A stretch of 51,576 nt of DNA from positions 1-51,576 of IMG/VR virus record IMGVR_UViG_3300028590_000023, one strand, 5' to 3'. Origin of the DNA: a virus. The position numbers were made by a program, and so were the translations under genes. Shown here piece after piece: positions 2,061 to 33,236 of this stretch (position 1 is its first letter; every line of letters starts with the position of its first letter). Under the pieces are notes generated by a model. It saw nothing but the letters and a program-made list of their open reading frames with translations, was not told the origin of the DNA and ran no database searches.

Positions 2061-2353
2061 ATAAAGCAATATTGAACTTGCCTTTCGATAAGGCAATGGG
2101 TACCGAACGAGAGAGACGCCAGTTCTACGAGGCAACCCAGGAGTTGATGACTGAATCTCTAGAAATTAGCCGTGAACTCCTTGATCTCAAGCAGGCAATT
2201 ATGGAGACGAACGCTGATCGGTACAAGTTCATTCGCAAACAAGAAGGGGTAACGTTGATCGTGCAAGAGAATGGGGATTCTTTTGTACCAGAGACACCAC
2301 AACATGTGGATGCAGCAGTCGATAAGCTAAGGGCTACCAAGGAGAAAACATGA
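2057..2353 (+). CDS. Hypothetical helical protein, 98 aa
   Basis: The ATG overlaps the previous stop (ATGA). Residues 20-55 are strongly helical (RQFYEATQELMTESLEIS and onward), followed by a short strand region KQEGVTLIVQENGDSFV. The C-terminus is again helical. No family recognised. It is coupled to the tagged coiled-coil gene at 2350. Confidence 0.6.
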   Translation: MNKAILNLPFDKAMGTERERRQFYEATQELMTESLEISRELLDLKQAIMETNADRYKFIRKQEGVTLIVQENGDSFVPETPQHVDAAVDKLRATKEKT

Positions 2354-2568
2354 TTGAGTTAAATGCTGCTACTCGTTTGTCAGCTGGTAAAAACGTCGAT
2401 GACTTGAAAAGAGAGTTAGACGATATAGAGGAAAATATAGAAGACCTGAAAGAAGAAATTCAAGACTCTGACGATAACGATACCATTGATGACTTAAAGA
2501 GCGAGTTGAAAAGCCTTACAAAACAAAGGGACGCCTTGAAAGAAGCCATACGTAAAGCCCAAAACTAA
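2350..2568 (+). CDS. N-terminally tagged coiled-coil protein, 72 aa
   Basis: The protein starts MIELNAATRLSAGKN, a clear copy of the tag shared by many small proteins in this window. The rest (residues 16-72) is an almost uninterrupted charged coiled coil with repeats of D/E-L-K (DDLKRELDDIEENIEDLKEE). It could be a small structural filler or a partner of another tagged protein. The ATG overlaps the stop of the preceding gene. Function unknown; virion packaging is inferred from the tag. Confidence 0.7.
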   Translation: MIELNAATRLSAGKNVDDLKRELDDIEENIEDLKEEIQDSDDNDTIDDLKSELKSLTKQRDALKEAIRKAQN

Positions 2569-2578
2569 AAGGAATTAC

Positions 2579-2707
2579 ATGGAAACTCTAGCAGATATCC
2601 GGAATGAAAATCCAGAACAGTTTGATGCCCTAATCCGGGCATCTATACATGAAGCGGCAGCCCTAGTGGGCCCGCAGGTTGTTATAGAAGCCCTAGTAGG
2701 TGAATAA
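2579..2707 (+). CDS. Very small hypothetical protein, 42 aa
   Basis: An ATG at 2579 follows AAAAGGAATTAC, a good ribosome-binding site, and the frame runs 42 codons to TAA. The product METLADIRNENPEQFDALIR then continues as an alanine-rich helix (HEAAALVGPQVVIEALVGE). It fills the gap between two genes exactly and ends one base before the next ATG, which supports it as a real gene. Function unknown. Confidence 0.55.
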   Translation: METLADIRNENPEQFDALIRASIHEAAALVGPQVVIEALVGE

Positions 2708-2708
2708 T

Positions 2709-3167
2709 ATGGGTCTAAGAATTCAAGCGGTAGCCAGACTTAGGGCTGGCCGTGAAACAGGCAGAGGGGCAGGTGCTGTGTTCTACTGTCCGGCTACAGG
2801 TAGATTCCTTTTGGTTAAACGTAGTGATCGTGGTGATGATCCTGGTACATGGTGCTGCCTCGGCGGCGGTGTCGATGACGACGATCCGTCCTTCGAGCAC
2901 ACGGTTCTACGGGAAGCCCAGGAAGAGGCGGGCTTTAGTGGTGAGTGCGACCTGCATTTCATGTACGTTTGTGAGCAGCCTGACTTCTCCTTCTATAACT
3001 ACTGTGCCGTGGTTCCTGAGGAGTTTAAGCCTCGCCTAAACGACGAGCACACGGAATATCAGTGGGTTGCTAGAGAAGATTTTCCGGAGCCAATGCATGA
3101 GGGATTTATGGAAGCTCTCAATTCCGATAGTGGGCAATCAGTGTTGAAAAGGTTAGGAGCATTATAA
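2709..3167 (+). CDS. NUDIX hydrolase carrying the shared N-terminal tag
   Basis: A nucleoside-diphosphate-linked hydrolase. I choose the ATG at 2709 over an upstream GTG at 2700 because it places the tag at the terminus: MGLRIQAVARLRAG. The domain follows at about residue 20: AGAVFYCPATGRFLLVKRS, then WCCLGGGVDDDDPSFEH and VLREAQEEAGF. The last part is the REx2EExG catalytic half of the Nudix box (Mg-binding Glu at about 72 and 73); the loop before it is slightly longer than usual. The substrate cannot be told; phage NUDIX proteins act on (d)NTPs, nucleotide sugars, NAD-like dinucleotides or RNA caps. Confidence 0.85.
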   Translation: MGLRIQAVARLRAGRETGRGAGAVFYCPATGRFLLVKRSDRGDDPGTWCCLGGGVDDDDPSFEHTVLREAQEEAGFSGECDLHFMYVCEQPDFSFYNYCAVVPEEFKPRLNDEHTEYQWVAREDFPEPMHEGFMEALNSDSGQSVLKRLGAL

Positions 3168-3982
3168 TGCTAGTTATATACCACGCAAACTGTACCGATG
3201 GGTTTGGTGCAGCGTTCGCGTTTTACAAACGCTTTGGTAAGAGTCCTAATGTGGAGTTAGAGTTTCATCCAGGTGTATATAACCAGGTGCCCCCAGATGT
3301 CAAAGGTAAGGATGTTTATCTAGTTGACTTCTCTTATCCAAGGGAAGTCATATCGGCTATGTGTAAAGAGGCTTCCTGGGTTACTGTCATCGATCACCAC
3401 AAGACGGCTATCGAGGGACTAGCAGGTTTGGATGACGTAGAAACAAACCTAAGCCTACACTTAAGTACCGATCATTCCGGTGCTATGCTGGCTTGGAACT
3501 ACTGCTTCCCCACAGTCTCACCGCCAACATTATTGGACCACATAGAGGACCGAGACTTGTGGCGCTTCAAGCTGCCCGGCACTAGGGAGATTATAGCAGC
3601 CCTATACAGCTACCCCTTCGATTTTGAAGTGTGGTCGGAACTAAATACAAGCGCTCTTTATTCTGATGGGATTCCTCTTCTAAGGTCAGATAGAAAGCGA
3701 ATGGAAGACCTGCTGAAACAACCAGAGCGTAGGACCCTCATAGGTGGCTATAATGTGAGAGTCGTTAATGCACCGCCCTACTTGGCATCTGAAGTTGGTC
3801 ACTTACTTTGTGATGGGGAGCCTTTTGCAGCTACTTATTATGATGGTCCACATCATAGGCATTTCAGTTTGCGCTCTGCCAAAGATGGTTTAGACGTAGA
3901 AGCCATAGCCCAGCAGTATGGTGGCGGTGGGCATTATCATGCATCGGCCTTCAAGGTTCCTCTACCCGAGGTGCTTCTATGA
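3167..3982 (+). CDS. DHH-family phosphoesterase
   Basis: A 271-residue member of the DHH superfamily (RecJ/NrnA-like phosphoesterases that hydrolyse short oligonucleotides or cyclic dinucleotides). Motifs in order: YHANCTDGFGAAFAF near the start (motif I with the metal Asp), VYLVDFSYP (motif II), VIDHHKTA (the DHH signature, about residue 80), HIEDRDLWRF (motif IV). At the C-terminus GGGGHYHASAF resembles the DHHA1 GGGH substrate motif. The gene starts one base before the end of the NUDIX gene (TAATG), so the two are probably co-translated. A role in oligonucleotide turnover or in degrading host signalling nucleotides is plausible; which one is unknown. Confidence 0.85.
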   Translation: MLVIYHANCTDGFGAAFAFYKRFGKSPNVELEFHPGVYNQVPPDVKGKDVYLVDFSYPREVISAMCKEASWVTVIDHHKTAIEGLAGLDDVETNLSLHLSTDHSGAMLAWNYCFPTVSPPTLLDHIEDRDLWRFKLPGTREIIAALYSYPFDFEVWSELNTSALYSDGIPLLRSDRKRMEDLLKQPERRTLIGGYNVRVVNAPPYLASEVGHLLCDGEPFAATYYDGPHHRHFSLRSAKDGLDVEAIAQQYGGGGHYHASAFKVPLPEVLL

Positions 3983-8941: not shown

Positions 8942-9283
8942 ATGAAAGTCAAGCTCAATGCATCGTCACGATTAAAAGCTGGTTGGTGGGATGACCTTTC
9001 AGATGCGGCTAAGAAGGCTTACAAGAAACTACATCCCAATAGTAAATTTGGGGGCGGTGGATCCTCAGGTGGCTCAAGCAAGAAAGAAGCTCTAGATAGG
9101 GCTCGAAAAGAGCATAAAGACGCTGCTGATGCCGTAGAGCAGATAGACAAGCGCCTGGGTGATCCTGATACCCGAACTGATGAACAGTGGGAAGAATACC
9201 ACAATGCCCTCGACAATCTGCGGAACAAGACCAAAAATCTGAAGAAACACGGTGGCATTAAACGATTCGGCGGATTTAAATAA
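8942..9283 (+). CDS. Tagged small protein with 'WWDDL...HPNSKF' motif, 113 aa
   Basis: I choose the ATG at 8942 (after CAGGGATAAGCA) over an upstream in-frame start because it gives MKVKLNASSRLKAGWW, with the tag at the terminus. Directly behind the tag, WWDDLSDAAKKAYKKLHPNS followed by KF resembles a short motif of the form W-x-x-L-[ST]-x-x-x-[QK]-x-A-Y-x-x-x-HPxSK that I associate with other phage virion-linked proteins. A Gly/Ser linker (about residues 38-48) leads to a charged helical half (RKEHKDAADAVEQIDKRLG) and a basic glycine-rich tail. Its place between two large structural genes supports a virion role. Confidence 0.65.
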   Translation: MKVKLNASSRLKAGWWDDLSDAAKKAYKKLHPNSKFGGGGSSGGSSKKEALDRARKEHKDAADAVEQIDKRLGDPDTRTDEQWEEYHNALDNLRNKTKNLKKHGGIKRFGGFK

Positions 9284-9284
9284 A

Positions 9285-10805
9285 ATGGATAACTCTACAT
9301 TTGTCTTCTTCAAGGACTACCAGACAGATACCGAGGTGGCGGCTAATATAGCGGACCTCTTAAGGTTCGGGGAGACTCTGATATCTGTAGTGCCTCAGGT
9401 AGTAAGTCCGGTAAGCACACCACCACTAGTGGTTACCCGCACTTCACCCCTGAATGATCCCGAAGTCCGTATGCTTCTTACTGGTAGCCAGGAGAACGTT
9501 AGCTACGGCTTCAAGCTTTTAATAACCACAGATGCCCGTACTTTAACGGCTTTGGTGGCTATCACTGCTACATCCAATGTTCAGGTTCCCTACACAACGG
9601 AGAACCCTAGGGCCTACGCGGATCTAGTAGATACCATCGAAGCGGGCAAGGCGGCTATTGGTACAGCTATATTCTCCTTCCCAGCTCAGGTCGATCCCTC
9701 AGGTGGATTCGTAAGCTGGGAATTCCTCGATGCTGAAGGCAGTGTTTATGCCGCAGGCAATGCGTTTGACTATACGGTGCGGTCCAACGGTGTGACCAAT
9801 ACATCTATAGCTAAAGCCGTCATCAACGTACCTTCATCGGTGCCCCCTTCCCTTGAGAACCAGAAATACCAACTGCGATACACGCTGGAGTTAAGCAGTG
9901 ACCTAGTTCAAGAGTACCCAACCCAAAGCCGCTACTATTCCTATGAGAATGTGGTAGTCGTTGGCTTGAACACTGTACCTCTGGGAACACAGCCCTCCAT
10001 AGAACTCCGAGGTGATCAGGCAGTTATGTCGATCGTGGTCGATAAGCTGTATGACAACGTATGGGTAGAACTGTATGCAGACAATACCAAATTAGGTGAG
10101 ACCCGGGTTCAGAACTTTGAGCGCGTGTCCTCTGGCTATTATTTTTCGGCGCCCTTCGATACGACAAATCTTCAGGAATCGTTGGAGTCTTATACCATCG
10201 TATGGCGCTATGGGTTCTCCAATCAACCCCATCAAGTATTCAGGGAATCCGCTGCCTTGTGGATTACCACACCGACAGTCATGCAGGCCATAGAGGACGT
10301 TAAGGCCAAGATCAACAAGGCTCGCACTACCTTGTATGGTACACCTGATCTTCTGTTCCCACCGACTACGATCATGACGTGGCTACGCCGGGCAGCCGAT
10401 AACTTCAATGGTGCTTACGGGGTATTCACAAGCTTCACCTTCACTAAGGCCAAAGGAGGTATTCGTGAATACTGGCTCATGTATGCCGAACTGTTGGCTA
10501 TAGAGAGTCAATACCTGGCTGAAGGGGAGAAGGCTTTCGATTTCCAAGGTGCAGCTATATCGCTTAATGTTGACCGTACTGGCTTCCTGGACACGGCTGC
10601 CTCAAAGATTCAGAGCCGTTTGGACAACGAGTTCAAGCCTTTCAAACAGAATCTGGTAATCAAGGGTCAAACTGGGGGCGATGGTTCAGCCGATCCTTCA
10701 AAGCTTGCACCTGGTGCTATCGGTGCCGTTGGCATTACTATCACACCGGCATCCCCTTGGGGTCCATATCGTGTGGGCTTACCTTACCCAACTATCTTTA
10801 GGTGA
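9285..10805 (+). CDS. Probable virion structural protein, 506 aa
   Basis: An ATG at 9285 begins just after the preceding stop; an upstream GTG at 9252 would overlap it, so the shorter form is preferred. The protein is dominated by beta-strands with Thr/Ser/Val-rich repeats typical of sandwich domains (residues 1-330), then a helical segment with EDVKAKINKARTTLYGTPD, and a C-terminal Gly/Pro-rich part (LAPGAIGAVGITITPASPWG). It resembles baseplate or tail-associated proteins of large myoviruses. No catalytic motif is visible. Confidence 0.6.
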   Translation: MDNSTFVFFKDYQTDTEVAANIADLLRFGETLISVVPQVVSPVSTPPLVVTRTSPLNDPEVRMLLTGSQENVSYGFKLLITTDARTLTALVAITATSNVQVPYTTENPRAYADLVDTIEAGKAAIGTAIFSFPAQVDPSGGFVSWEFLDAEGSVYAAGNAFDYTVRSNGVTNTSIAKAVINVPSSVPPSLENQKYQLRYTLELSSDLVQEYPTQSRYYSYENVVVVGLNTVPLGTQPSIELRGDQAVMSIVVDKLYDNVWVELYADNTKLGETRVQNFERVSSGYYFSAPFDTTNLQESLESYTIVWRYGFSNQPHQVFRESAALWITTPTVMQAIEDVKAKINKARTTLYGTPDLLFPPTTIMTWLRRAADNFNGAYGVFTSFTFTKAKGGIREYWLMYAELLAIESQYLAEGEKAFDFQGAAISLNVDRTGFLDTAASKIQSRLDNEFKPFKQNLVIKGQTGGDGSADPSKLAPGAIGAVGITITPASPWGPYRVGLPYPTIFR

Positions 10806-10835: not shown

Positions 10836-11480
10836 ATGATTACATTAAACTCCTCTACAAGGCTCCTAGCCAAAATTAATTCCTTAGACTATGTTCACGG
10901 GATTAACCATATTTTACAGACATCCAAACCTCCTCGTAAGAGTTCTGTGGCCCAGTCAGCAGAACGCTTTAGAAATGCTCTGTATGACTACTTGGAGGGT
11001 TTTTCCGATGTAAATAGCAAATGGGCCCCATTTCTTCTGGACATAGGTTTAACTGATAAATGCCCCTCGGTTCTTTACAGGCTGGTTTTAATGCCTATTA
11101 AGGTCAAGTTGAAACCTGGTGACACGGTTAGACTAAACTCCAAGCCATTAATGTCGGCGTCTGATAGACCTTATAATGCAGTATATGCTGGGTCTAGTTA
11201 TCATGCTGACATGGAAACGAGTTTAGATAATATGCAGCTTGCTCTAGTCTCCATTCAAAATCCAAAATGCATATTCTCTTTCGACACGCTCAAGGCTTTT
11301 GTAAAAGGGACGTCTGCTTATGACAGGATTGTGTACGAGAGGCTTGAGAAGGAACGAGAATACATAATCAGGGGCCTAAATGTTAAAGGTAGGATTATGT
11401 ATATAACCGATAACGTGGACTATATAAGGAAAGGTAAGTATCGGTCTCTGAAGAAATTCATTAAACCAGATAAGGAGTAA
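10836..11480 (+). CDS. Tagged mono-ADP-ribosyltransferase-like protein
   Basis: A 214-residue protein starting MITLNSSTRLLAK (the shared tag). The three R-S-E landmarks of arginine-directed ADP-ribosyltransferases appear in order: Arg82 in LYRLV, Ser-Ala-Ser at about 107-109 in KPLMSASD, and E173-x-E175 in EKEREYII, followed by a strand with a Gly-containing turn as in the ARTT loop region. T4 Alt and ModA are the known phage examples, modifying host RNA polymerase and other proteins; Alt is packaged in the head through an N-terminal targeting sequence. This gene has a paralogue at 15588. The enzyme assignment rests on motif order and spacing, without overall similarity. Confidence 0.7.
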   Translation: MITLNSSTRLLAKINSLDYVHGINHILQTSKPPRKSSVAQSAERFRNALYDYLEGFSDVNSKWAPFLLDIGLTDKCPSVLYRLVLMPIKVKLKPGDTVRLNSKPLMSASDRPYNAVYAGSSYHADMETSLDNMQLALVSIQNPKCIFSFDTLKAFVKGTSAYDRIVYERLEKEREYIIRGLNVKGRIMYITDNVDYIRKGKYRSLKKFIKPDKE

Positions 11481-11482
11481 TC

Positions 11483-11620
11483 ATGCTGTCCTTTCTAATC
11501 GGTGTTGTTGTAGGTTCTGCTGGCTATCGTTATCTAAGCAAGAATAATCCAGCTGTACTGGACTATTTGGTAACTAAAGCTAATTCTCTTGTTACTTGGT
11601 TTAAAGGAAAATTCAAATGA
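11483..11620 (+). CDS. Small membrane protein, 45 aa
   Basis: An ATG at 11483 after TAAGGAGTAATC gives a 45-residue protein with an N-terminal hydrophobic segment (MLSFLIGVVVGSAGYRYL, one short transmembrane helix) and a basic C-terminus. The stop overlaps the ATG of the next gene (ATGA), supporting it as real. The role could be small-protein modulation of the membrane; nothing more can be said. Confidence 0.6.
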   Translation: MLSFLIGVVVGSAGYRYLSKNNPAVLDYLVTKANSLVTWFKGKFK

Positions 11621-11964
11621 TCAAACTAAATGCAGCAACTCGTATTATGGCTTCCTCTGAAATAGAGCACGTACAAAAGATTTTGAAGCCTATTCTAGGT
11701 GACTCCCACCCTAGCCCTAGTGGCACGTCCATTACCTGGGCTAAAGGGGAATTTCCTACCCAGCTTGATGAGATCGAGGGTGGGATACGACTTACATTTA
11801 ATCCCAAGATGCGTAAAGCCTGGTTTGGGGTTGAGGGCACCAATTCTGCGGATCTATTAAAGAAATTGCGAACCAAAGCCGAAAAGATGCTGGACAAACT
11901 CAAACGTGAACCCAACTTCGAGTCGGTTAAAGACGTTCTCGAAGCCTTTTCCAAAGTACGATAA
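11617..11964 (+). CDS. Tagged protein, member A of a three-copy paralogous family
   Basis: Starts MIKLNAATRIMASS (tag). After the tag comes a helix with VQKILKPILG, strands with TSITWAKG and IRLTFNPKMRKAWFG, then a helical C-terminus with SADLLKKLRTKAEKMLDKLK. The copy at 12496 keeps the same order (LLEPILG, NIKWKP, FVFQPRAMRRAWTG, then helices ending MLEALANL), and the copy at 32555 is a more distant relative. Function unknown; the tag suggests shared virion destiny. Confidence 0.7.
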   Translation: MIKLNAATRIMASSEIEHVQKILKPILGDSHPSPSGTSITWAKGEFPTQLDEIEGGIRLTFNPKMRKAWFGVEGTNSADLLKKLRTKAEKMLDKLKREPNFESVKDVLEAFSKVR

Positions 11965-12053: not shown

Positions 12054-12482
12054 ATGAAGCTCAAGTCTGGCCAGCGCCTCTTGGCTGCTACAAAGTTTGT
12101 TATTAATAACAAGTATGGTTCTCTAGAATATAACTGGAAATCAGACCTTGAGGACGAAGAATATCCAGGTTACATCCCTGATGGGTACAGTAAAACGGTA
12201 CTAGAGCTTTCCTATTTAATTGCGTCAGAACTCAATAAGGGTTATGGTTCAAAGTTGATGAACACTTTTTTGAACAGTCCTCAAGCCAAGAAGGCAGAAT
12301 TGATTTTCTTGGACCCAAATCCTGACGAAGGTTTATTTGAAAACTCTGGAATACCAGAGAGGGAACAAATTAATAGGTTAATTCGCTTTTATGGGAAATT
12401 TGGATTTAGGCACGCCCCAGGATCAACTCGTATGTGGTTAGTACGTCGAGGTACTATACCTGATAATAAACTCCCTAAGTAG
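12054..12482 (+). CDS. GNAT-like acetyltransferase with tag-like N-terminus
   Basis: A 142-residue protein starting MKLKSGQRLLAAT, a diverged tag that keeps R-L-x-A. The body fits the GNAT acetyl-CoA fold: strand with TVLELSYLIASELNKGYGSK (G-x-G at the acetyl-CoA binding turn) followed by a helix, a strand with AELIFLDPNP, then INRLIRFYGKFGFRHAPGST and a final strand, the typical 'FYxKxGF' end of GNAT domains. The substrate could be a protein or a small molecule. It is preceded by two hairpins, so it may be separately controlled. Confidence 0.65.
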   Translation: MKLKSGQRLLAATKFVINNKYGSLEYNWKSDLEDEEYPGYIPDGYSKTVLELSYLIASELNKGYGSKLMNTFLNSPQAKKAELIFLDPNPDEGLFENSGIPEREQINRLIRFYGKFGFRHAPGSTRMWLVRRGTIPDNKLPK

Positions 12483-12495: not shown

Positions 12496-12858
12496 ATGAA
12501 GATTAATGCAGCAGCCAGGCTTCAAGCCACCCAATCAACATCGGAGGAGCTTCTACATCTGTTAGAACCCATATTAGGAACCAATTATAAGAAATCAAAG
12601 ACCAGCTATTCCACAAACATCAAGTGGAAGCCCACACCTACTTGGAGTGCTATGCTGTCTGTAGGTAATGATGGATCTCTATACTTTGTTTTTCAGCCTC
12701 GTGCTATGCGTCGCGCATGGACTGGCGGTAATGGCCAAGACGTGACTACGGTACTGAAGTTTCTAACTCGAAACACGAAGAACATTCTTCGAGAATTTGG
12801 TAACGACTCTAAAATCGCAGACGTTAAACCTATGTTGGAGGCATTAGCTAACCTATGA
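12496..12858 (+). CDS. Tagged protein, member B of a three-copy paralogous family
   Basis: Starts MKINAAARLQATQ (tag). The 120-residue product aligns with the protein at 11617: LLEPILG, a strand with NIKWKP, the F-x-P-R-x-M-R-R-A-W block, a helix with TTVLKFLTRNTKNIL, and an ending with KPMLEALANL. The two copies are two genes apart, consistent with duplication and divergence inside the tagged island. Function unknown. Confidence 0.7.
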   Translation: MKINAAARLQATQSTSEELLHLLEPILGTNYKKSKTSYSTNIKWKPTPTWSAMLSVGNDGSLYFVFQPRAMRRAWTGGNGQDVTTVLKFLTRNTKNILREFGNDSKIADVKPMLEALANL

Positions 12859-13121
12859 AACTCAACGCAGGCATACGCCTTAAAGCCGATGACTGGAGCT
12901 CTGACGTAGAGACCAAGAACCACACACCAGAAGGTTTGTTCACCAAATCAGCTAATGAAATAGCGCGAGGCATAAAGAAGGAACATGGTTCTGACTTCAA
13001 GGGCGCTATGAATGCACTGACCTTTTACTATAACCGGGCTGGCGATAATTTGTCAGAAGCCGATAAGCGGAAAGGTGAGCATGCTAAAGAAGCCCTACGT
13101 AAACTCTACGGTAAATCATGA
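12855..13121 (+). CDS. Tagged DUF3175-like protein, 88 aa
   Basis: Starts MKLNAGIRLKADDW (tag), then a segment matching DUF3175: FTKSANEIARGIKKEH, GAMNALTFYYNRAGDNLSEA and AKEALRKLYGKS, corresponding to the family's 'AMSMLxFYINRAGxNL ... AKxELRxxFG' core. Stand-alone DUF3175 proteins are small bacterial proteins of unknown function. The ATG overlaps the previous stop. Capture of a bacterial small domain behind the tag is a reasonable inference. Confidence 0.7.
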   Translation: MKLNAGIRLKADDWSSDVETKNHTPEGLFTKSANEIARGIKKEHGSDFKGAMNALTFYYNRAGDNLSEADKRKGEHAKEALRKLYGKS

Positions 13122-13273
13122 AGTGCCCTGTATGTGGCAGTGTGATAGCCGCTACTTATAAGGTAAAGAGCCGAGAGCTAGGTGCCTGTTACGGTGGCCA
13201 TCTCTTTAAAATGCCTCTTAAACTCCAAGCTGCGGCGAGGCTTAAAAAATGGAACTCAATAAATCAACGATGA
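13118..13273 (+). CDS. Zinc-ribbon miniprotein carrying the tag sequence at its C-terminus, 51 aa
   Basis: The ATG overlaps the stop of the preceding gene (ATGA). The product begins MKCPVCGSVIAATYKVKSRE with a C-x-x-C and a third Cys in GACYGGH, a half zinc-ribbon. It then ends MPLKLQAAARLKKWNSINQR: this contains a good tag copy, L-Q-A-A-A-R-L, but at the C-terminal end. An internal ATG at 13211 would give the tag as the start of a 20-residue peptide. The end overlaps the next gene by 25 bases. It may be a remnant of a lost tagged gene. Confidence 0.55.
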   Translation: MKCPVCGSVIAATYKVKSRELGACYGGHLFKMPLKLQAAARLKKWNSINQR

Positions 13274-17430: not shown

Positions 17431-17441
17431 AATTTTATGCG
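17431..17441 (+). promoter_or_regulatory. Candidate phage promoter, AATTTTATGCG
   Basis: AATTTTATGCG follows the terminator at 17387 by five bases and precedes the giant helicase gene. The nearest in-frame ATG (17437) lies inside the motif, which favours the downstream start at 17464. Same core as at 6443 and 47949. Confidence 0.55.
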
Positions 17442-17463
17442 GAATATACCACCGAGGACGATT

Positions 17464-22743: not shown

Positions 22744-23469
22744 ATGTTTTTCGATTCAGAACCTAAGAAGCCAAACATCATAGTGGCCAACAATGGGATA
22801 TCTGTAATTGATGCCGAAAAAGACGGTTCTCGATTGCAGACTTTGGACTACCCTACTTGGCTCCCTTTCGCAGCTAAACTCTACAATATCAGCTCCAACA
22901 TAGAGGACTTCTTGTTGGTCACCACACCTATCTGCCCATCTGATATCCCCAATCGGAATGGTGTGGCCTTCCCCCTTGCAGAGCTCACCAAGTTTCAACC
23001 GCCGCCTGTATCCCGCATGACCTACAAAGCCTGGAAAGGCTGCCCGGTTCATAGGGAACATAAAGCCGATGTTCATGAAGATGCCTATGGTGTTATTCTT
23101 GACGCTTCCTTGCACAAGGTAACCGGATACGGCAATGGTAAGCTGTGGAAGGTAATGGGGCTGCTGGCTATCGACAAGTATAAGTACCCAGAGATGGCAC
23201 GTAGGGTTCGAGAAGGCGATGTTAATACCTACTCGATGGGAGCTCTAGCGGACTTCTTTACTTGCTCATATTGTGGTCAGGAGATAACTAAAGCCAGCAA
23301 TTGTGGTCACGTTCATCATAAGAACGAGATAGATTGGCGTGAAGTTATAGGACCTGATGGTAGAAACCACATAGCGTTTCGCAATGCCCATAATGTGAAT
23401 CCTGTGGAATGCTCTATCGTTGAAAGTCCTGCGTGGACTACCGCGCTGTCTGATCAGATATTAGGCTAG
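22744..23469 (+). CDS. Prohead maturation protease with inserted zinc-finger-like loop
   Basis: A 241-residue protein whose position just upstream of the scaffold and capsid genes, and whose motifs, fit the herpesvirus-like prohead protease group (T4 gp21-like). Candidate catalytic residues are His103/His106 in CPVHREHKADVHEDAYGVIL and Ser164 in NTYSMGALAD; the closing strand VECSIVESPAWTTA is the usual C-terminal block of these proteases. Between them a loop FTCSYCGQ ... NCGHVHH (about residues 172-192) supplies three Cys and several His, an unusual putative zinc-binding insertion. It would process the scaffold and capsid proteins and perhaps tagged cargo. Confidence 0.75.
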   Translation: MFFDSEPKKPNIIVANNGISVIDAEKDGSRLQTLDYPTWLPFAAKLYNISSNIEDFLLVTTPICPSDIPNRNGVAFPLAELTKFQPPPVSRMTYKAWKGCPVHREHKADVHEDAYGVILDASLHKVTGYGNGKLWKVMGLLAIDKYKYPEMARRVREGDVNTYSMGALADFFTCSYCGQEITKASNCGHVHHKNEIDWREVIGPDGRNHIAFRNAHNVNPVECSIVESPAWTTALSDQILG

Positions 23470-23859: not shown

Positions 23860-23906
23860 CAACAAGGTTTGTCCACAACACTTTGTACGACGTTAAAGGA
23901 ACCATC

Positions 23907-25205
23907 ATGCCCATCAAGAAACAAGTTCAGGCAGCCAAAACTGCTTCTACCTCGACGCATATCGACAATCTGGACCCAGTAAAGGTCGAAGAAAGCGATA
24001 CCAAACTGATGAACCACATGTCCCCGGATACGCTGATCGATCCGGAAGATGACAAGCCTGGTTCGACTTATTCGGCAATCACGGCTTCTACAGAAGAGAT
24101 CGATCTGCCAGATGACTCCCTGGAAGATGACGAAGAGTTGGATGCTGCATCGTTGCACACGCCTCAAGATGGTGAAGAAGTCGAAAACAACGATACGCCC
24201 AACATCCTGACAGCCGACGAGGATGAAGACGAGGATGAAGACGAGGATGACGAAGATCCTGATTGGGACGCTCCGGTAGAGGACGAAGAGGAAGAATTCG
24301 AAGCTGAAGACGAAGAGGCTGTGGAGGACGTTGGTGATGTAGAAGACGTTGCTGAAGAGGATGAGACCGTGGCTTCCGATGCAATGCCTATCGTTGACGT
24401 TGATGGCACTGATGACTCAGATGTGGACAATGTGGTCTTTGCTTCGTTTGGTAGCCGTTTGATGGTCATCAAAGGCAGCCGTATCATAGCGACCATGACT
24501 AAGGCAGCCGCAGATGCAGCGAAGCACGCCGACGTTTATATGAGCGATCAATTCCAAGATGTTGTAGCTTCGGAAATGGTTAAGAAGGGCTTGCGTCAGG
24601 GCTTGACCGGCATGGGCTTCGTTATGGCGAAAGTCGATGTGACCAAGCAAGAAACAGTAAACGCTAGGGTTGAACGTAAGGTTCAGGCAGCTACCGCAGC
24701 CGTACGTAAGGTAAGCGCCTCCAAAGAAGCAGCCTTCGAGCAATCGTTGGCAATCGCTTCTGTTGGTATCCACCGTGGCTTCTTCAAGGACCAGCCGAAT
24801 GAACTGAAAGCCGCCCTGGAGAAGGAACTGCAACTGGCTGGCCTACGTGGTGGCGCTAAGTTGGTTGAGCGTGTGTTTGCTGCTCATGGCCCGTCCTACG
24901 CTAAAGCGATTGTGACGTTGGCAACCAAACTGTCCGCTATGCCACAAGCTGTGCGGGATGAGTTTGTAGCTGGCCTCGATATGACCTCTGAAGACGTTGA
25001 TATGGTTAGCGATGACGAACTGGAAGAAGGTGTTCAGATCGGCGCCGATGACGACTTCAACGATGATGAGTTTGTGGATGACGTAACGACCGTTACTGCT
25101 GCATTAAACAAACCGGGTGTTCCACGTCAAGTAGTTACGGCCAAGACTGCTGGGTATTCTGTTGCGGCCGCCTCTATTCTTAATGGGGAAAAGTCATTGT
25201 TCTAA
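23907..25205 (+). CDS. Acidic scaffold-like prohead core protein, 432 aa
   Basis: The ATG at 23907 follows AAAGGAACCATC and is preferred over an in-frame ATG at 23883. The N-terminal MPIKKQVQAAKTAS is basic; residues about 60-190 are extremely acidic, with runs of Asp/Glu encoded partly by 12-bp repeats. From about 185 a folded helical domain follows (LMVIKGSRIIATMTKAAADA; RKVQAATAAVRKVSASKEAA), and the C-terminus is again acidic then basic. Highly charged helical proteins between protease and capsid genes are typically the internal scaffold (T4 gp22 role), degraded after assembly. Assignment rests on position and composition. Confidence 0.65.
   Translation: MPIKKQVQAAKTASTSTHIDNLDPVKVEESDTKLMNHMSPDTLIDPEDDKPGSTYSAITASTEEIDLPDDSLEDDEELDAASLHTPQDGEEVENNDTPNILTADEDEDEDEDEDDEDPDWDAPVEDEEEEFEAEDEEAVEDVGDVEDVAEEDETVASDAMPIVDVDGTDDSDVDNVVFASFGSRLMVIKGSRIIATMTKAAADAAKHADVYMSDQFQDVVASEMVKKGLRQGLTGMGFVMAKVDVTKQETVNARVERKVQAATAAVRKVSASKEAAFEQSLAIASVGIHRGFFKDQPNELKAALEKELQLAGLRGGAKLVERVFAAHGPSYAKAIVTLATKLSAMPQAVRDEFVAGLDMTSEDVDMVSDDELEEGVQIGADDDFNDDEFVDDVTTVTAALNKPGVPRQVVTAKTAGYSVAAASILNGEKSLF
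24216..24251 (+). repeat. Three tandem 12-bp repeats coding Asp/Glu
   Basis: GACGAGGATGAA at 24216-24227 and 24228-24239 is followed by GACGAGGATGAC at 24240-24251. The repeats encode D-E-D-E units inside the acidic region of the scaffold-like protein. Tandem exact repeats here probably arose by slippage and may vary in copy number between relatives. Confidence 0.85.
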
Positions 25206-25949: not shown

Positions 25950-27026
25950 ATGACCAAACTCAAAGTACGTGCAGCTCGCACTCCAGTTGTTGCTCAAGAC
26001 TATCGTTTCAATGACGGCAGTCTGGCCATCGGCGCCAAGGGCGAATTGAATGCATCGTCCAAGAAGGAACTTCTGCAACGTCAAGTGCAGTTCTTGCAAG
26101 CCGCTTCTAACGGTCAAGTCGTTACTGCTGCTCAAGCAACTGCAATGGAAAATCAGTCCAAGATCAACCGTGAGTTGGTTCAGGCTGCTTTCAATGACGC
26201 AGCAGCACACCGTATCCTGGGTGAGCGCGTTGCTGAGTCCCTCTACATGACTGCCAATCGTGAAGGCTTCATGCGTAAGTATTTGGCCAAGATCGACGTT
26301 GCGCAAGGCACCATCCCGCGCTTCCCGGTCCGCGCCAAGAACGTGACTGCTGTATGGTCCACTTCGCCGACTCGCGTTCAATCGCAGATCACTCGTGACA
26401 AATGGCTGTACCCGCCGGAACTGTCCATCATCGCTCGTCCGTTCATTACCCAGAACGAACTGAATCAAAGCGCTGGTGACGTTCTGCAAGAGAAGTTCGT
26501 TGAAGCTACTGAAGCCGTTATGGTTTCGGAAGACCGTCTCTGGTACAACCAAGCTAACCAACTGGTTGGCGTTGACAACAACCTGGCAATCGTCAGCGGT
26601 CAGCTCACACCGTACACACTGATGCAAGTCGTGGTCAACGTTACTCGTTGGGGCCTGAAGACACCGCACGTCCTGATCGCAGCTGACCTGTATGCTGATA
26701 TCATCGGTAACTCTGAGTTCTACGAAGCAATCGATCCGGTTGCTCGCCACGAGTTGCTGCTGACTGGCGAACTGGCTGTTATGTACGGCATGACCATCAC
26801 TTCCGATGCCTACCGTCATCCGGAACACAAGGTTCTGAACCAAGGCGAATTCTTCGTGATCGCTGACAAGCTGAATCACGGTGGTTACTCTGATCGCGGC
26901 GGCCTGCAATCGAGCCCGACCGATATCACTGTCGAACAGATCCCAGGCAAGGGTTGGGTCATCCACGAAGAGATCGCTATCTCCATCGCCAACAGCCGTT
27001 CCATCGCTAAGGGCGTACGCCTCTAA
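25950..27026 (+). CDS. Major capsid protein
   Basis: A 358-residue protein with strong AAGGAGAG ribosome-binding site and extreme codon bias. Order of elements fits the HK97 fold: an N-terminal charged arm (KKELLQRQVQFLQAASNG, about 38-55), a helix region with FNDAAAHRILGERVAESLYM, the strand FPVRAKNVTAVWSTSPTRVQ, a long spine-helix region (about 175-200), the P-domain with PHVLIAADLYADIIG, and a late LNQGEFFVIADKLNHGGYSD. Its place after protease, scaffold and decoration genes and before tail genes supports the call. The N-terminal ~35 residues may be removed by the prohead protease; the cleavage site cannot be fixed. Confidence 0.8.
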   Translation: MTKLKVRAARTPVVAQDYRFNDGSLAIGAKGELNASSKKELLQRQVQFLQAASNGQVVTAAQATAMENQSKINRELVQAAFNDAAAHRILGERVAESLYMTANREGFMRKYLAKIDVAQGTIPRFPVRAKNVTAVWSTSPTRVQSQITRDKWLYPPELSIIARPFITQNELNQSAGDVLQEKFVEATEAVMVSEDRLWYNQANQLVGVDNNLAIVSGQLTPYTLMQVVVNVTRWGLKTPHVLIAADLYADIIGNSEFYEAIDPVARHELLLTGELAVMYGMTITSDAYRHPEHKVLNQGEFFVIADKLNHGGYSDRGGLQSSPTDITVEQIPGKGWVIHEEIAISIANSRSIAKGVRL

Positions 27027-28266: not shown

Positions 28267-28488
28267 ATGCGACAGCTCTTGATTAATCTAACGCGCGAGA
28301 CTCTGCAGGTAGAGATTCGTTTGCCGGATAACAGGCTTAGTCATGTACAGCTTATGCCTCGCAGCAGAGCACACATAGGAGTCGGCTGCAAAGTCGATGA
28401 CAACTATCGGGCCCTTAGTCCAAAGGCTATTAAAGTGGTTGAGGAGCAAAAGGTAGTTGAAGAGCAAAAACAAGATGGAGAAGAGTAA
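28267..28488 (+). CDS. Hypothetical small protein, 73 aa
   Basis: The ATG at 28267 is preferred over the overlapping GTG at 28264. The product has an N-terminal beta part (MRQLLINLTRETLQVEIRLP) and a charged C-terminus (EEQKVVEEQKQDGEE). Its stop overlaps the sheath start (TAATG), so it is translated together with it. Unknown function, possibly a small tail or neck component. Confidence 0.55.
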   Translation: MRQLLINLTRETLQVEIRLPDNRLSHVQLMPRSRAHIGVGCKVDDNYRALSPKAIKVVEEQKVVEEQKQDGEE

Positions 28489-30422
28489 TGACTATTCTTG
28501 AACAAAGAGCCTCTGACGTTCGCATCCAGGAAATCAATCTATCGACGGTCATTACTTCGAACAGTACGGCCGTAGGCTGCCAGGTTGTGGTGGCCAAGCA
28601 AGGTTCCCCTGAGCCTAAGTTCTTTACGAATGCCGATGACTATATTGCTGAATACGGCAATCCCGATGCTTCTGTATCGTTCGACGTATATTGCGGTCTC
28701 GATTTCTTCAGGGAAGGCAATGCGTTATGGGCACGCCGTGCCGTGCATAACGATGCGCTTTATGCTGGCCTTCTGCTGTATAGCGATGGCACTACCATGG
28801 CTTTCGAGCCCATAACGGCTGGCATAGCCGACCCAGAGAACCCAGACTGGGAATCATTAATCCCGTCGCCTACCGATATACCCATCGCTTTGTTTTGGCC
28901 TAAGCAAGGACCTGGTTCGTTCGCTGATGAACTAGCGGCTAGCATAGTATCGAATAACATTGATGCACCTACTAACGTGGATGCCGCTTCGGTTGCCACC
29001 GGTGGCTCTATGGTTGCTGGTACCTATCAGTATTCGGTGTCGGCATTGGGTAAGAACGGCGAAACACTGGCTTCAGTACCCGCTATAGTAGTGATTGCTG
29101 GTGTAGCTGTCACCAATTCGGTAACGGTATCGTGGGATCCTATACCGCTGGCCATAGGCTATCGCGTATATGGGCGGCTACAAACATCGGCCAACATCGG
29201 CCTTATGGCCGAAATAGGTCAAGGTACTTACGAGTTCTTGGACACTGGCTCGATAACACCGAATACTGCCCGTAAGCCAATCACCAATCCTGCTGATTTG
29301 CCTCCGCCTGACCCAACGTTCACTGTCAATCTGTATGACGAACGTATCCCTTCTGTTGAGAGTTATCTCTGCACGTTGGGCCCCAACACTGATGATACAG
29401 GAATGTCGACGGAGCTAGAGGAACGTATTAACCCCTTCAGTGTGGCATTCAATGTCACATCGAACGTTAGTGCTTTGGTCTCCATACCGCCTGTTAATAC
29501 AGTTGATCGGGAGAACCTGGCTGGTGGTACCAGCGGCTCGGCACCCACATCGTTTGATGTAGCGGCTGCCTACGATATCTTCAAGAACAAGCAGCTCTAT
29601 CGTATTAATACGCTGATCAACGGTGGCCATGCTAACCCTACTGTTCAATTGGCGATGGACACTCTGTCCCAAGGTCGTGGCGATACAGTGGGCATGTTGG
29701 ACGTGCCGTCTGCAAAGCAGAGAATGCAAGATGCCCTGAACTATCGTAACTTGGAGCTGAATCTTAACTCCTCGTATAGTGCTTTGTTCTGCCCGGACGT
29801 TCTGGAAGCCGATAACATCAATGGCAAGCAGCAGTATGTACCGTTCTCTGGGTGGGCTGCTGCACTATGCGCCCGTACTGACCGGGTAGCTAACCCAAGC
29901 TTCTCGATAGCAGGCTTGAATCGAGGCTTAGTCAACGTTCTGAAAACCCGTTATACGTATGACGATGGGCAGGCAACTCAACTGTTTAAGGCCCAAGTCA
30001 ACTACACGAGGACTTTCATTGGTCAGGGCATTGCGCTGTGGGAGCAACAGACACTTAGCGCCCAACAGTCTGCGTTGTCTTGGATATCGGTACGTCGGAT
30101 TGTCAACGTCATCAAGACTTCGCTGTACCAGTTCCTGCTCTACAGCTTGCAAGAACCCAACGATGACTTCACGGGTCGGCAGATCGTAGGCTCTTGCTCT
30201 GACTACCTGGAACTGATCAAGAACGCACGAGGTTTAACTAGCTATCAGGTTATATCGGATACCCGTAATAACTCGGCTGCTATGTTCAACTCGGGCATCC
30301 GTAGGGTTACGGTCATCATCGTGCCGACCATACCTATCCATGAGATTCAGTTGCAGATCGTGATCTCTAAACAGGGTGTGTCGTTTGAGGAAGTTCTTAC
30401 TCAAGTAACTGGGCAGGGCTAA
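28488..30422 (+). CDS. Contractile tail sheath protein
   Basis: A 644-residue sheath protein. The N-terminus, INLSTVITSNSTAVGCQVVV followed by FTNADDYIAEYGNPD and DFFREGNALWARRAVHND, is the conserved start of myovirus sheath proteins (surface loop, 'F-x-x-x-x-D-x-x-x-x-G' and 'A-R-x-V'). The middle (about 160-275) includes an Ig-like insertion (GTYQYSVSALGKNGETLASV). The C-terminal third has the characteristic order LNRGLVNVLKTRY, FIGQGIALWEQQTL, SWISVRRIVNVIKTSLYQF and QLQIVISKQGVSFEEV. This gene makes the phage a myovirus. Confidence 0.9.
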   Translation: MTILEQRASDVRIQEINLSTVITSNSTAVGCQVVVAKQGSPEPKFFTNADDYIAEYGNPDASVSFDVYCGLDFFREGNALWARRAVHNDALYAGLLLYSDGTTMAFEPITAGIADPENPDWESLIPSPTDIPIALFWPKQGPGSFADELAASIVSNNIDAPTNVDAASVATGGSMVAGTYQYSVSALGKNGETLASVPAIVVIAGVAVTNSVTVSWDPIPLAIGYRVYGRLQTSANIGLMAEIGQGTYEFLDTGSITPNTARKPITNPADLPPPDPTFTVNLYDERIPSVESYLCTLGPNTDDTGMSTELEERINPFSVAFNVTSNVSALVSIPPVNTVDRENLAGGTSGSAPTSFDVAAAYDIFKNKQLYRINTLINGGHANPTVQLAMDTLSQGRGDTVGMLDVPSAKQRMQDALNYRNLELNLNSSYSALFCPDVLEADNINGKQQYVPFSGWAAALCARTDRVANPSFSIAGLNRGLVNVLKTRYTYDDGQATQLFKAQVNYTRTFIGQGIALWEQQTLSAQQSALSWISVRRIVNVIKTSLYQFLLYSLQEPNDDFTGRQIVGSCSDYLELIKNARGLTSYQVISDTRNNSAAMFNSGIRRVTVIIVPTIPIHEIQLQIVISKQGVSFEEVLTQVTGQG

Positions 30423-30469: not shown

Positions 30470-30874
30470 ATGATAAAGATTAATGCAGCAGCTAGACTAA
30501 AGGCTGAGTACGAGGGAACCAAGGTAAAGGACCTTGCGACCTACGTTAAGTCTTTATGCCCTTCTGCTAAATTCAGCTCTAGCCCTCCTATGAAGAGTGG
30601 CCAATTGGTGGCTATTGTTCAAAAAGCTGATGCACTGAGGCTAGGTAAAGCTCTTATGAGCGAAGGGTGGAAAAAGCGTCGTATTAAGCGGATTCTAAAT
30701 ACCCAGGAAGCTAAGATTTATAACGTGTTCACTCCAAGTAACTCTGAAGATACACCAATAATATATGTACCTGCTGTTAGACTGTCAGAGCCGTCCTCCT
30801 CAGGTAAGGTGTCGGTGCATATAACTCAGGGTACTGCAATGAGTGTTAGCGAAAACCGTAAGAACCGTGCCTAG
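30470..30874 (+). CDS. Tagged protein of unknown function, 134 aa
   Basis: The ATG at 30470 after TTGGAGAACCAC gives MIKINAAARLKAEYEG, a clean tag. The body has a helix with VKDLATYVKSLCPSAKFSSS, strands with GQLVAIVQKA, a helix (LRLGKALMSEGWKKRRIKRI), and a beta C-terminal part ending with basic residues. The coding of the first ten tag residues (ATTAATGCAGCAGC) is almost identical to that at 12496, suggesting recent copying of the tag. Function unknown. Confidence 0.65.
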   Translation: MIKINAAARLKAEYEGTKVKDLATYVKSLCPSAKFSSSPPMKSGQLVAIVQKADALRLGKALMSEGWKKRRIKRILNTQEAKIYNVFTPSNSEDTPIIYVPAVRLSEPSSSGKVSVHITQGTAMSVSENRKNRA

Positions 30875-31635: not shown

Positions 31636-32142
31636 ATGCCACGTTCTTCTTTGTTTGATGTTCTATCGCTTCAGGATCCGGCTTCTTCCTGGAACTTCGA
31701 TCTTTTCCTGCCAACAATCCCAGGTTCTTCAGATACCCGTGATTTGACTTACAAATGCATGACGACTGATCTCCCCGGTTCAGGGATGGATAATATGGAA
31801 GTCGCTTTGCATGGCGTCTCCCTTCAGTATGCGGGCCGTCGTATTTATACGCATACCCTGAATGCTACCTTTCTGGAAACCGCTGATTGGTCCACCCGTG
31901 AGAAGTTCAAGAGGTGGCATGATGAAATGCGGTCGTGGACTAACAATAGTGGGTCCATTGCTGCTGCCTATAAAGTGAATGCGCAGATTGTGGTCTATAA
32001 CGACATACCTGAAGTCGTAAGGACCTGCAATATCATTGGCTTGTGGCCTGAAACCGTTACTGAAGTTCCTCTGGATGGTTCTGCATCGAATCTCATTACG
32101 CTTCAGATTTCCTTCCGATACGACTACTGGGAAGATTCTTGA
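31636..32142 (+). CDS. Tail tube protein
   Basis: A 168-residue protein starting MPRSSLFDVLSLQDPASSWN after a perfect AAGGAG. The layout matches the T4 gp19-like tube fold: LFDVL...SWNFDLFLPTIPG, LTYKCMTTDLPGSGMDNMEV, LHGVSLQYAGRRIYTHTLNA, EKFKRWHDEMRSW, and an end with ITLQISFRYDYWEDS. Many copies stack to form the inner tube driven through the host envelope by the sheath. In most myoviruses it follows the sheath gene directly; here three small genes intervene. Longer upstream starts cross the divergent gene and are rejected. Confidence 0.85.
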   Translation: MPRSSLFDVLSLQDPASSWNFDLFLPTIPGSSDTRDLTYKCMTTDLPGSGMDNMEVALHGVSLQYAGRRIYTHTLNATFLETADWSTREKFKRWHDEMRSWTNNSGSIAAAYKVNAQIVVYNDIPEVVRTCNIIGLWPETVTEVPLDGSASNLITLQISFRYDYWEDS

Positions 32143-32173
32143 TCCACAAAATTCAATTTAATAGGAGAAGCAA

Positions 32174-32545
32174 ATGAAACTTAACGCAGCAACTCGGTTG
32201 GCGGCCGCTATTAATAACCTTTCTAAACGAGACGTTCTTAAGATCCTCGATGAATTAGGAATAGGGGCAAAGAATATCTCAATAGAGGATGGTAGCTGGC
32301 TTGTCACTGCAAAGTTGGCAATCACTCCAGCAAGTATCAAAGATAAAATAGCTACGATAAAGGAGGCAGTTGATCCCCGGTTCTTTGACTTGGAAGTCTC
32401 AAAACGTGCTACCTATATCATTGCCCCCTATTCAGAAAATGTTGGTCTTCACATACAGTTTATTCCACATTCTGACATCATTGTTATAGATGGCCCAGTT
32501 ACTAAATATAGTGGCTGTAAGAAATTCTTCAGAGACCAGCTCTAG
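32174..32545 (+). CDS. Tagged protein of unknown function, 123 aa
   Basis: The AATAGGAGAAGCAA site and ATG at 32174 give MKLNAATRLAAAINN, a canonical tag. The body: a helix with KRDVLKILDELGIG, strands (ISIEDGSWLVTAKLAI), a helix (SIKDKIATIKEAVDPRFFDL), then beta (IIAPYSENVGLHIQFIPH). The pattern helix-strand-strand-helix resembles the 11617 family, but similarity is weak. Function unknown. Confidence 0.65.
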   Translation: MKLNAATRLAAAINNLSKRDVLKILDELGIGAKNISIEDGSWLVTAKLAITPASIKDKIATIKEAVDPRFFDLEVSKRATYIIAPYSENVGLHIQFIPHSDIIVIDGPVTKYSGCKKFFRDQL

Positions 32546-32554
32546 TGATTAATC

Positions 32555-32923
32555 ATGGGTACTCGAATCAATGCGGCTGCTAGGTTGGTGGCTGCTTCTA
32601 TAGAGGACCTAAAGCAGGTAATCAAACTCCTGTGTAAGGCTCTTGGGCGAGGCAAAGTAGCCAACAAGTCCATACAATGGTCAGGTCCACTGTGGAATGC
32701 TGAGCTACGGAACGAGGGCGAGCTATATTTTGAGCTTCATTTCCGTAGCTCGGACCTGGACATCTATAACTTCGGATTTTATGCGACTGATCTAAATGAC
32801 TTTCTAAAGCAATTGAAGGGCAGCTTGAAGATCAATAGGCATAGCATAGCCAAACAGATTAAAGCTGGTGGGCCAGAGGGGTTGACCAGCATCGCAGCTC
32901 TGTTTGATAAATTCCCTCTTTAA
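32555..32923 (+). CDS. Tagged protein, member C of a three-copy paralogous family
   Basis: Starts MGTRINAAARLVAAS (tag). It shows the layout of the proteins at 11617 and 12496: a helix with LKQVIKLLCKALG, a strand with KSIQWSGPLWNAEL, beta with LYFELHFRSSDLDIYNFGFY, and a helix with LNDFLKQLKGSLKI, then an ending like SIAALFDKFPL. No clear ribosome-binding site precedes it, suggesting coupling to the gene just upstream. Function unknown. Confidence 0.65.
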   Translation: MGTRINAAARLVAASIEDLKQVIKLLCKALGRGKVANKSIQWSGPLWNAELRNEGELYFELHFRSSDLDIYNFGFYATDLNDFLKQLKGSLKINRHSIAKQIKAGGPEGLTSIAALFDKFPL

Positions 32924-32933
32924 GGAGAAGCAA

Positions 32934-33236
32934 ATGAAGGTTAACGCAGCGACCCGGCTTCAGGCCGACTCTGGTCTAAGCGAAATAGAAGACACACATA
33001 TCCAGAATGTGGTCAAAAAGATCGCACAAAGTGGTTTCGACATAGAGGAGACCAAGACTGGTCCTGTCCGTATAACGTTCAGGCCTCGTGGAAAATCCAC
33101 TATGTCTCGGGAATCAATAGTCAAGCCGCAGGGGTTGCTTGTTCTCTCCCGGTTGTTGTCTGCACTCGAATCCAAGTATGAAATAGAGATATTCGTATGT
33201 GATGGTTACATACGAGTCTATTTCTTGGACAAATGA
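32934..33236 (+). CDS. Tagged protein of unknown function, 100 aa
   Basis: The ATG at 32934 follows TAAGGAGAAGCAA and yields MKVNAATRLQADSG, a canonical tag. The body has a helix (DTHIQNVVKKIAQSGFDIEE), strands with GPVRITFRPRGK, a helix (GLLVLSRLLSALESKYEIEI) and a terminal strand (GYIRVYFLDK). The compact alpha/beta fold has no recognised relative. Confidence 0.65.
   Translation: MKVNAATRLQADSGLSEIEDTHIQNVVKKIAQSGFDIEETKTGPVRITFRPRGKSTMSRESIVKPQGLLVLSRLLSALESKYEIEIFVCDGYIRVYFLDK

Follow-up and report, generated by a model that had tools for sequence, protein, structure and literature searches.

A shared peptide tag on dissimilar small proteins of a jumbo-phage clade, a candidate signal for loading cargo into the capsid

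Tagged genes of the window

The window analysed here is the whole of IMG/VR virus record IMGVR_UViG_3300028590_000023, a 51,576-base fragment whose left end lies inside a gene. Sixteen of its genes encode mostly dissimilar small proteins that begin with variants of one short peptide, hereafter the tag, which has the consensus [ILV]-[NQEK]-A-[AS]-x-R-L-x-A and lies no more than about 5 residues from the initial methionine. An earlier note on this DNA had named 16 such starts, and a regular expression run over every possible start codon in the window returned exactly those 16, with no extras. The profile search of related phage genomes that the note had proposed was run and placed the tag on about 160 proteins of about 100 families in 11 records, which belong to one clade of jumbo myophages and comprise the window, IMG/VR contigs, Achromobacter phage Motura and, with few tags, Burkholderia phage BcepSauron.

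The tagged genes of the window all lie on the plus strand, and their copies score from 10.2 to 29.0 bits with a position profile that was trained on the tags of the 11 related records and used with a hit threshold of 10 bits. The first gene, at 2350..2568, encodes a 72-residue protein in which MIELNAATRLSAG is followed by a coiled coil (23.4 bits; Pfam matches only of coiled-coil type), and the second, at 2709..3167, a tagged NUDIX hydrolase (MGLRIQAVARLRAG; 19.5 bits; Pfam NUDIX E=5e-17), 8 of whose 9 cluster relatives are tagged. A GNAT-like protein is encoded at 12054..12482 (MKLKSGQRLLAAT; 17.5 bits), where the Pfam match is weak (Acetyltransf_7 E=0.0085), and a GNAT acetyltransferase at 13581..14123 (MKLNAANRLTSQ; 15.8 bits), where it lies above the curated cut-off (Acetyltransf_1 E=4e-4). 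The DUF3175 protein at 12855..13121 (MKLNAGIRLKADDW; 19.0 bits) matches its family from residue 31 onwards (E=9e-13) and belongs to a cluster in which 9 of 10 members are tagged. At 14135..15283 lies a SprT-like metallopeptidase starting ILGSANRLQAA (15.4 bits; Pfam SprT-like E=2e-11), with tagged orthologs in the relatives G002, G005 and G009; its tag requires a GTG start, or a TTG start at 14129.

The products of 10836..11480 (MITLNSSTRLLAK; 18.6 bits) and 15588..16103 (MIPLNAVTRLQRP; 11.8 bits) are paralogs (47% identical) that look like ADP-ribosyltransferases of the R-S-E type, with R82, S107-A-S109 and E173-R-E175 in order and the pattern YR...SxS...ExE conserved in three members. Neither sequence matched Pfam or the PDB, and a comparison of the window ADP-ribosyltransferase-like protein with phage records also found no match. 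In an AlphaFold model of the 10836 product (predicted template-modelling score, pTM, 0.71) the stretch that connects the tag with the domain, residues 8-41, is unfolded, as a tail would be; with only three sequences in the alignment, this is a weak test. The top Foldseek matches of this model were mostly ADP-ribosyltransferases, none of them significant (best E=0.03, template-modelling score about 0.26-0.33).

A further paralogous pair, 31% identical, is formed by the small proteins of 11617..11964 (MIKLNAATRIMAS; tag found by the start-codon scan) and 12496..12858 (MKINAAARLQATQ; 29.0 bits). The AlphaFold model of the latter is poor (pTM 0.56), with tag residues 1-14 below 50 in predicted local distance difference score (pLDDT). 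The claim of the earlier note that the bodies behind the tag are unrelated thus applies to most of them, with these two pairs as exceptions. The 70-residue protein of 16100..16312 (MIKLDAAARISLS; 10.2 bits) has no Pfam match. Between the sheath and tube genes, 30470..30874 encodes a tagged protein (MIKINAAARLKAE; 26.0 bits), and a tagged gene of BcepSauron (35607-35960) occupies the matching slot. Orphan families are encoded at 32174..32545 (MKLNAATRLAAA; 22.9 bits), 32555..32923 (MGTRINAAARLVAAS; 27.2 bits) and 32934..33236 (MKVNAATRLQADS; 23.9 bits). The weakest copies in the window, those of 15588 and 16100, have no alanine at +3, and in 11617 and 16100 the residue after the tag arginine is isoleucine, not leucine.

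At 8942..9283 the tag (MKVKLNASSRLKAG; 22.9 bits) precedes the module WWDDLSDAAKKAYKKLHPNSKF, of the form WxxLSxxxKxxYxxxHPxSK, which by eye is the same as that of cluster 3 of the tagged relatives, although BLAST does not join them. A module of the form W-W/F-x-x-L-S-x-x-Q-K-x-x-Y-x-x-x-H-P-x-S-K-Y-A stands behind the tag in several proteins (window 8942-9283; L164:17845-19808; L180:18755-19240; L186:16042-17058), with a similar form in phage HRDY3 (L236:11693-12001), and it had no Pfam match at E 0.001. A cysteine pair resembling CPVCG is followed by the tag at 13118-13273 in the window, at 32754-33671 in the G008 contig and at 14268-15908 in the G010 contig (L163), a layout that suggests a zinc ribbon, the tag and then a body. 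In the window this protein (13118..13273) has 51 residues, opens with CPVCG, ends in the tag copy LKLQAAARLKK (17.1 bits from the internal methionine at 13211) and has no body after it.

Clustering of the bodies without their tags sorted the proteins of the clade into the families counted above, many of which lack relatives even in closely related phages, and the tagged proteins are small (median 123 residues, quartiles 98-188). Bodies that can be recognised among the window and its relatives are DUF3175 (9 tagged members), NUDIX (8), SprT-like metallopeptidases (several) and GNAT. There is one clear ADP-ribosyltransferase (PF03496, 2e-28), there is a match of one relative to the T4 Alt family in PHROGs (phrog_802, 2e-7), and three tagged kinases match the family of T7 0.7 type, with 6.5e-18 as the best value; an enzyme resembling saccharopine dehydrogenase and a protein with a ribosome-modulation-factor match are also tagged. 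Alt of phage T4 is packaged and injected.

Conservation and distribution of the tag

In the profile the arginine is present in 99% of copies, followed by leucine in 96% and by alanine at +3 in 74%, while position -2 is mostly alanine, -3 is alanine or serine in 98%, -4 is mostly asparagine (glutamine in Motura, often glutamate in G002) and -5 is isoleucine, leucine or valine in 90%. In an alignment of 118 tagged relatives, arginine was the sole invariant position. Shuffled N-termini of the window gave 0.0 matches at 10 bits. At the same threshold, tagged genes numbered 22 against 0.3 in shuffles for G010, 17 against 0.15 for G004, 15 against 0.15 for G011, 14 against 0 for G009 and 10 against 0.15 for Motura, and most genomes of the clade held 6 to 22, with shuffles reaching at most 0.55. 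The gene set behind these counts omits some short genes, and a count based on open reading frames gave 18-24 in the larger genomes. The jumbo phages PaBG and Lu11 had zero profile matches at 10 bits.

The profile was trained on our own data, and checks independent of it were therefore added. A de novo search for gapped triplets, made with no prior pattern, found RLxA in 12, AxxRL in 11 and NxxxRL in 11 window genes, against a shuffle maximum of 6. A strict DNA pattern for the tagged start was scanned over 2.9 million viral contigs and 257 billion bases of prokaryote genomes. It matched 9 stretches in IMG/VR, 6 of them in contigs that carry a related capsid gene and several tags, with neither a related capsid gene nor several tags in the other 3; the prokaryote genomes gave 56 scattered single matches, which were taken as chance. 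The tag is specific to this jumbo-phage clade, and on this the de novo search and both strict-pattern scans agree. Chance or low complexity as its source was excluded by the shuffles, the de novo patterns and the collection scans. We found no paper describing the tag, which is weak evidence, as most subscription journals lay outside the search.

Comparisons between copies bear on the level at which the tag is maintained. Among the window tags, residues agree at 0.58. Agreement is only at chance level for the third positions of identical residues (0.32), the 30 upstream bases (0.31) and the body residues just after the tag (0.07). Taken genome by genome, tags agree over nine positions at 0.53-0.67 in residues; the values are about 0.32 for third bases of identical residues, 0.27-0.31 for the 30 upstream bases and 0.07-0.10 for the residues that come next. 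Synonymous sites, the DNA upstream and the bodies that follow the tag are thus random, so that selection acts on the peptide, and the proposal of the earlier note that codons vary freely while the protein is selected was borne out. The nucleotide similarity expected from a recent duplication, a 5' cassette or an RNA signal is absent, which rules these out.

Tagged genes within the virion block

The capsid protein of the window is 67% identical to those of the Burkholderia phages BcepSauron and BcepSaruman (263 kb), 59% to that of Motura (221 kb) and 73-78% to those of several IMG/VR contigs, and in a capsid-protein tree the tag-bearing phages form a single group with 100/100 support. The virion genes of the window lie on the plus strand between 1 and 34 kb. 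Landmarks of this block are a head-tail connector-like protein (9252..10805; phrog_17327 E=3e-69), a giant helicase of 1,513 residues (17437..21978; phrog_62, phrog_21391), the head maturation protease (22744..23469; phrog_18299 E=8e-78), a putative scaffold or core protein annotated as 'ATPase' in relatives (23883..25205; phrog_20988), the major capsid protein (25950..27026; N-terminus KLKVRAARTPVVA; phrog_2522 E=4e-92), the tail sheath (28488..30422; phrog_23 E=4e-72) and the tail tube (31642..32142; Phage_T4_gp19 E=5e-5, with homologs annotated as tail tube in BcepSauron and Motura), all on the plus strand. The scaffold role is suggested by the position of the gene between those of the protease and the capsid protein. 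The PaBG homolog of the giant helicase, gp202 (221 kDa), is a Coomassie-visible virion protein (PaBG Table 1). Residues 1-14 of the capsid protein, of the form KIKVxAARTPxVA, are kept across the tag-bearing clade and differ in PaBG and Lu11. On the minus strand, from 34.6 to 47.9 kb, lie genes that resemble those of replication and repair (helicases, clamp, clamp loader, SbcC-like), named by sequence and homologs with no family search behind the names.

Five records offered enough context to place their tagged genes, and of these 98 genes 87 lie inside the syntenic virion block (Fisher p about 2e-53). With limits set from homologs of the window virion genes and then padded, the block accounts for 20-22% of the four larger genomes. 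Nearly all tagged genes (145 of 152) share the strand of the capsid gene. For Motura about 18 tagged products are predicted, with most of their genes at 112.9-145.2 kb. They occupy variable slots, between connector and helicase, between protease and scaffold, and among sheath, tube and g33305, while the core structural genes keep their synteny and have no tags.

The tag is not confined to protein starts. Copies away from the N-terminus and with no methionine nearby number 19 in the clade, against 0.9 in shuffles, and 12 of the 14 that could be placed lie in the virion block, including copies in proteins of the g16309 and g27046 families. The C-terminal copy in 13118, which the earlier note had singled out, is thus present but is not an oddity, and one BcepSauron gene (175135-175647) has a copy at both ends. 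From the internal and C-terminal copies it follows that the tag is a position-tolerant linear motif, which also argues against a simple cleaved propeptide.

Attachment of the tag is modular, in that unrelated bodies bear it and the same ortholog can occur with or without it. The virion-block ortholog set of g7705 (7705-8937 in the window) is tagged in G009, G010 and G011 and untagged in six others, a natural gain or loss of the tag; in two of the three tagged orthologs it is apparently tandem. An enzyme resembling saccharopine dehydrogenase or homospermidine synthase is tagged and lies in the virion block in G010 (34377-35792; L164:15377-16792), and in Motura (74207-75577) it is without a tag and outside the block.

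Related tags and a possible role in capsid loading

An initial scan of PaBG and Lu11 for a tag of the clade type found none, and a de novo look found tags of their own. Lu11 has the tag MKIQLAVA (9 against 0.07 in shuffles) on about a dozen proteins, among them topoisomerase I and four ADP-ribosyltransferase-like proteins, three of these four recognised by motif only. Phage HRDY3 has the tag MExxLALA on a set syntenic with that of Lu11 (L236, HRDY3 92-117 kb; L235, Lu11 155-172 kb), Alexandra has the forms MExxVSLS and LIKINL, and PaBG an IKINL form (IKINLxEA). Like the clade tag, these are lineage-specific and precede ADP-ribosyltransferase-like, GNAT and other bodies, but their sequences differ from it; they may be homologous to the window tag. 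G010 encodes an ADP-ribosyltransferase-like protein (MMKLNAAHRLLASQIFYRGL...) with about 40% identity to gp197 of Alexandra, whose start is (L/M)QVFVSLSAPKIYYRGL...; the two have the same body behind each lineage's own tag. A distant relative of the Lu11 tagged ADP-ribosyltransferase-like protein occurs in the T4-like Vibrio phage 6E35.1a (L237:9974-10567), and its start, MKKFNEFAKELEEA, resembles the T4 internal-protein start MKTYQEFIAEA, a likeness without the weight of a test. No tag set of the forms tested was found in PhiXhv-12, Aura or GR7B, and Ea35-70, of which only about 60 kb was scanned for tags, had no match to the clade capsid protein. The DUF3175 domain of PhiXhv-12 lies inside a 319-residue protein without a tag, and for that reason is no test of exact orthology.

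One protein with such a tag is known from particles. PaBG gp83 has the tag in its PaBG form, starting MLIKINLLEAVAAK, and is among the 14 proteins identified in particles purified on CsCl gradients, its predicted mass agreeing exactly with the published 35,127.30 Da. Its gene adjoins the scaffold gene, as tagged genes do in four relatives.

Among known systems, the capsid-targeting sequence (CTS) of T4 is the closest in kind: a short N-terminal peptide on dissimilar small proteins, the internal proteins IPI-III and Alt, an ADP-ribosyltransferase among them, that is tied to head assembly (PMC5694885, PMC3012670), as the clade tags are found among virion genes. The T4 internal proteins are highly diverse with only the CTS conserved (PMC3012670), and with diverse bodies and only the tag conserved, the tagged set follows the same pattern. 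The differences are that the CTS (MKTYQEFIAEA, from a comparison of the ipII and ipIII starts) has no similarity to the clade form K-I-N-A-A-x-R-L-x-A, that it serves a handful of proteins and not up to about two dozen per phage, and that the clade tag has internal and C-terminal copies and no conserved glutamate for cleavage. In phage P1, N-terminal residues of DarB target the protein to the capsid for injection and do the same for a heterologous reporter (PMC9024508), but the Dar proteins share no common consensus, whereas one consensus serves about 100 families in the clade. The polyvalent proteins (Iyer et al. 2017) bring together domains of ADP-ribosyltransferase, kinase, GNAT and metallopeptidase type, for which entry into the host along with the DNA is predicted (PMC5512222), but as large multidomain polypeptides, where the clade has separate small proteins joined by a tag. 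The jumbo phages phiKZ and SPN3US package many proteins, and the SPN3US paralogs gp53 and gp54 have an identical 15-residue start (PMC5694885), but theirs are mostly propeptides of more than 100 residues with an S/A-x-E cleavage motif, on few proteins and in another phage lineage.

We think it probable that the tag is a signal by which cargo is loaded into the capsid and then delivered together with the DNA, and the best explanation by analogy is a signal that would work like the T4 CTS while being unrelated to it in sequence, and load accessory effectors. This reading is favoured by selection at the peptide level, modular attachment, the location among virion genes and the use of a different peptide in related phages. 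The analogy with T4 is strengthened by the orthologous ADP-ribosyltransferase-like bodies that carry lineage-specific tags in different jumbo phages, by the 6E35.1a start and by the presence in virions of a PaBG protein with PaBG's own tag, and the cargo type fits injection because ADP-ribosyltransferase, kinase, GNAT and zincin peptidase, enzymes that target proteins, are all listed for injected phage proteins (PMC5512222). Of the T4-like loading signal advanced in the earlier note, what stands is a protein-level sorting signal on cargo-like proteins co-encoded with virion genes; the tag is not strictly N-terminal, and loading and delivery are what we infer.

Other functions have to be weighed on the same evidence. 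It is unlikely, in our view, that the tag recruits late proteins to the assembly site, to another virion part such as the tail, neck or baseplate, or to core and scaffold assembly, its carriers being assembly factors or minor structural proteins. Tags beside the sheath and tube genes as well as the head genes, a conserved virion-block gene (g7705) tagged in three relatives and internal copies in the g16309- and g27046-family proteins would all suit such a role, but the bodies belong to rapidly changing accessory enzymes of conflict type, many of which have no ortholog even in close relatives. This is a misfit for assembly factors, and the core genes have kept their synteny without acquiring tags. 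An intracellular address that takes late host-modifying enzymes to a replication compartment, phage factory, membrane or nucleoid, with no role in the virion, would agree with the host-directed cargo classes and with the short terminal motifs typical of localisation signals too; the concentration of tags in the virion-gene block and on its strand speaks against it, as do a peptide too short and too polar for a membrane anchor and the untagged replication genes of the window, which such a compartment would need, and we regard it as quite improbable. A phage-nucleus import signal was excluded by the missing shell protein, since a search for the phiKZ nuclear-shell protein gp54 (chimallin) found nothing in five clade records (BcepSauron, Motura, G004, G010 and G011), with phiKZ as positive control. 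Nuclear import in phiKZ-type phages involves no conventional terminal signal (PMC13282480).

That the tag is only a recognition or cleavage site of the head maturation protease, a propeptide with no targeting function, seems very improbable. In its favour, the block includes the protease gene, virion proteins undergo processing in PaBG and the capsid N-terminus of the clade, KIKVxAARTP, resembles the tag, but this likeness is out of register by one residue with no cleavage site known, the gain of the tag by unrelated enzymes would go unexplained, and copies in mid-protein would have the protein cut. The chance that it is an RNA-level element such as a translation start signal, or a mobile 5' cassette without protein function, is negligible: most tagged genes do carry it at the start codon, but third codon positions are random, the 30 upstream bases are unrelated and 19 copies lie far from any start. 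The codon, upstream and body comparisons exclude such an element or the recent spread of a cassette.

Several observations weigh against capsid loading. Eleven of the 98 tagged genes lie outside the virion block, BcepSauron has few tagged genes, the tag shares nothing with the T4 CTS in sequence and, unlike that peptide, it is not strictly N-terminal. The profile lacks a glutamate-rich column and hence a conserved glutamate for gp21-like cleavage, although a different prohead protease specificity in the clade is possible. Many tagged bodies are orphans, which makes an effector role for them a guess. Our literature search found no virion proteome of a phage with the exact clade tag, and the tag of PaBG gp83 is related-looking yet different. 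One overlap between the 3 tagged PaBG genes and the 14 proteins detected, among 322 features, would arise by chance with a probability of about 0.13, and because of this chance of about 13% gp83 is supporting rather than decisive.

Under capsid loading, the tag would target the capsid as a short linear motif at a flexible end, most often within the first 12 residues and sometimes in a linker or at the C-terminus. Its carriers are small accessory proteins whose genes lie among those of the virion, and the tag may dock on a component of the prohead, most plausibly the scaffold or core or the inner face of the capsid propeptide. The propeptide start KIKVxAARTP, which is tag-like and is absent from PaBG and Lu11, makes the interface of scaffold and propeptide a sensible first candidate because of this resemblance. 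Tagged proteins would then be enclosed before the DNA is packaged and enter the next host with it. The cargo would be a set with exchangeable members, both host-directed enzymes and small proteins that probably act against host defences.

If this is correct, the proteins that a jumbo-phage clade injects could be named from sequence alone, as about 160 candidate effectors that fall into about 100 families, most of them without an assigned function, and the question of what a jumbo phage injects would become directly testable. A 2026 review counts only one anti-defence protein known from such phages (PMC13282480). More tentatively, and at somewhat less than even confidence, PaBG-, Lu11- and Motura-type jumbo phages may use a general cargo-loading code with one motif per lineage, matched to its own assembly machinery and placed at either end or in a linker, by which any acquired protein could be loaded, up to about two dozen effectors and anti-defence proteins per particle. 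A capsid-loading role would also make the tag a short handle by which selected proteins could be put into large phage heads, and would suggest that several lineages have arrived at the principle of the T4 CTS with different sequences.

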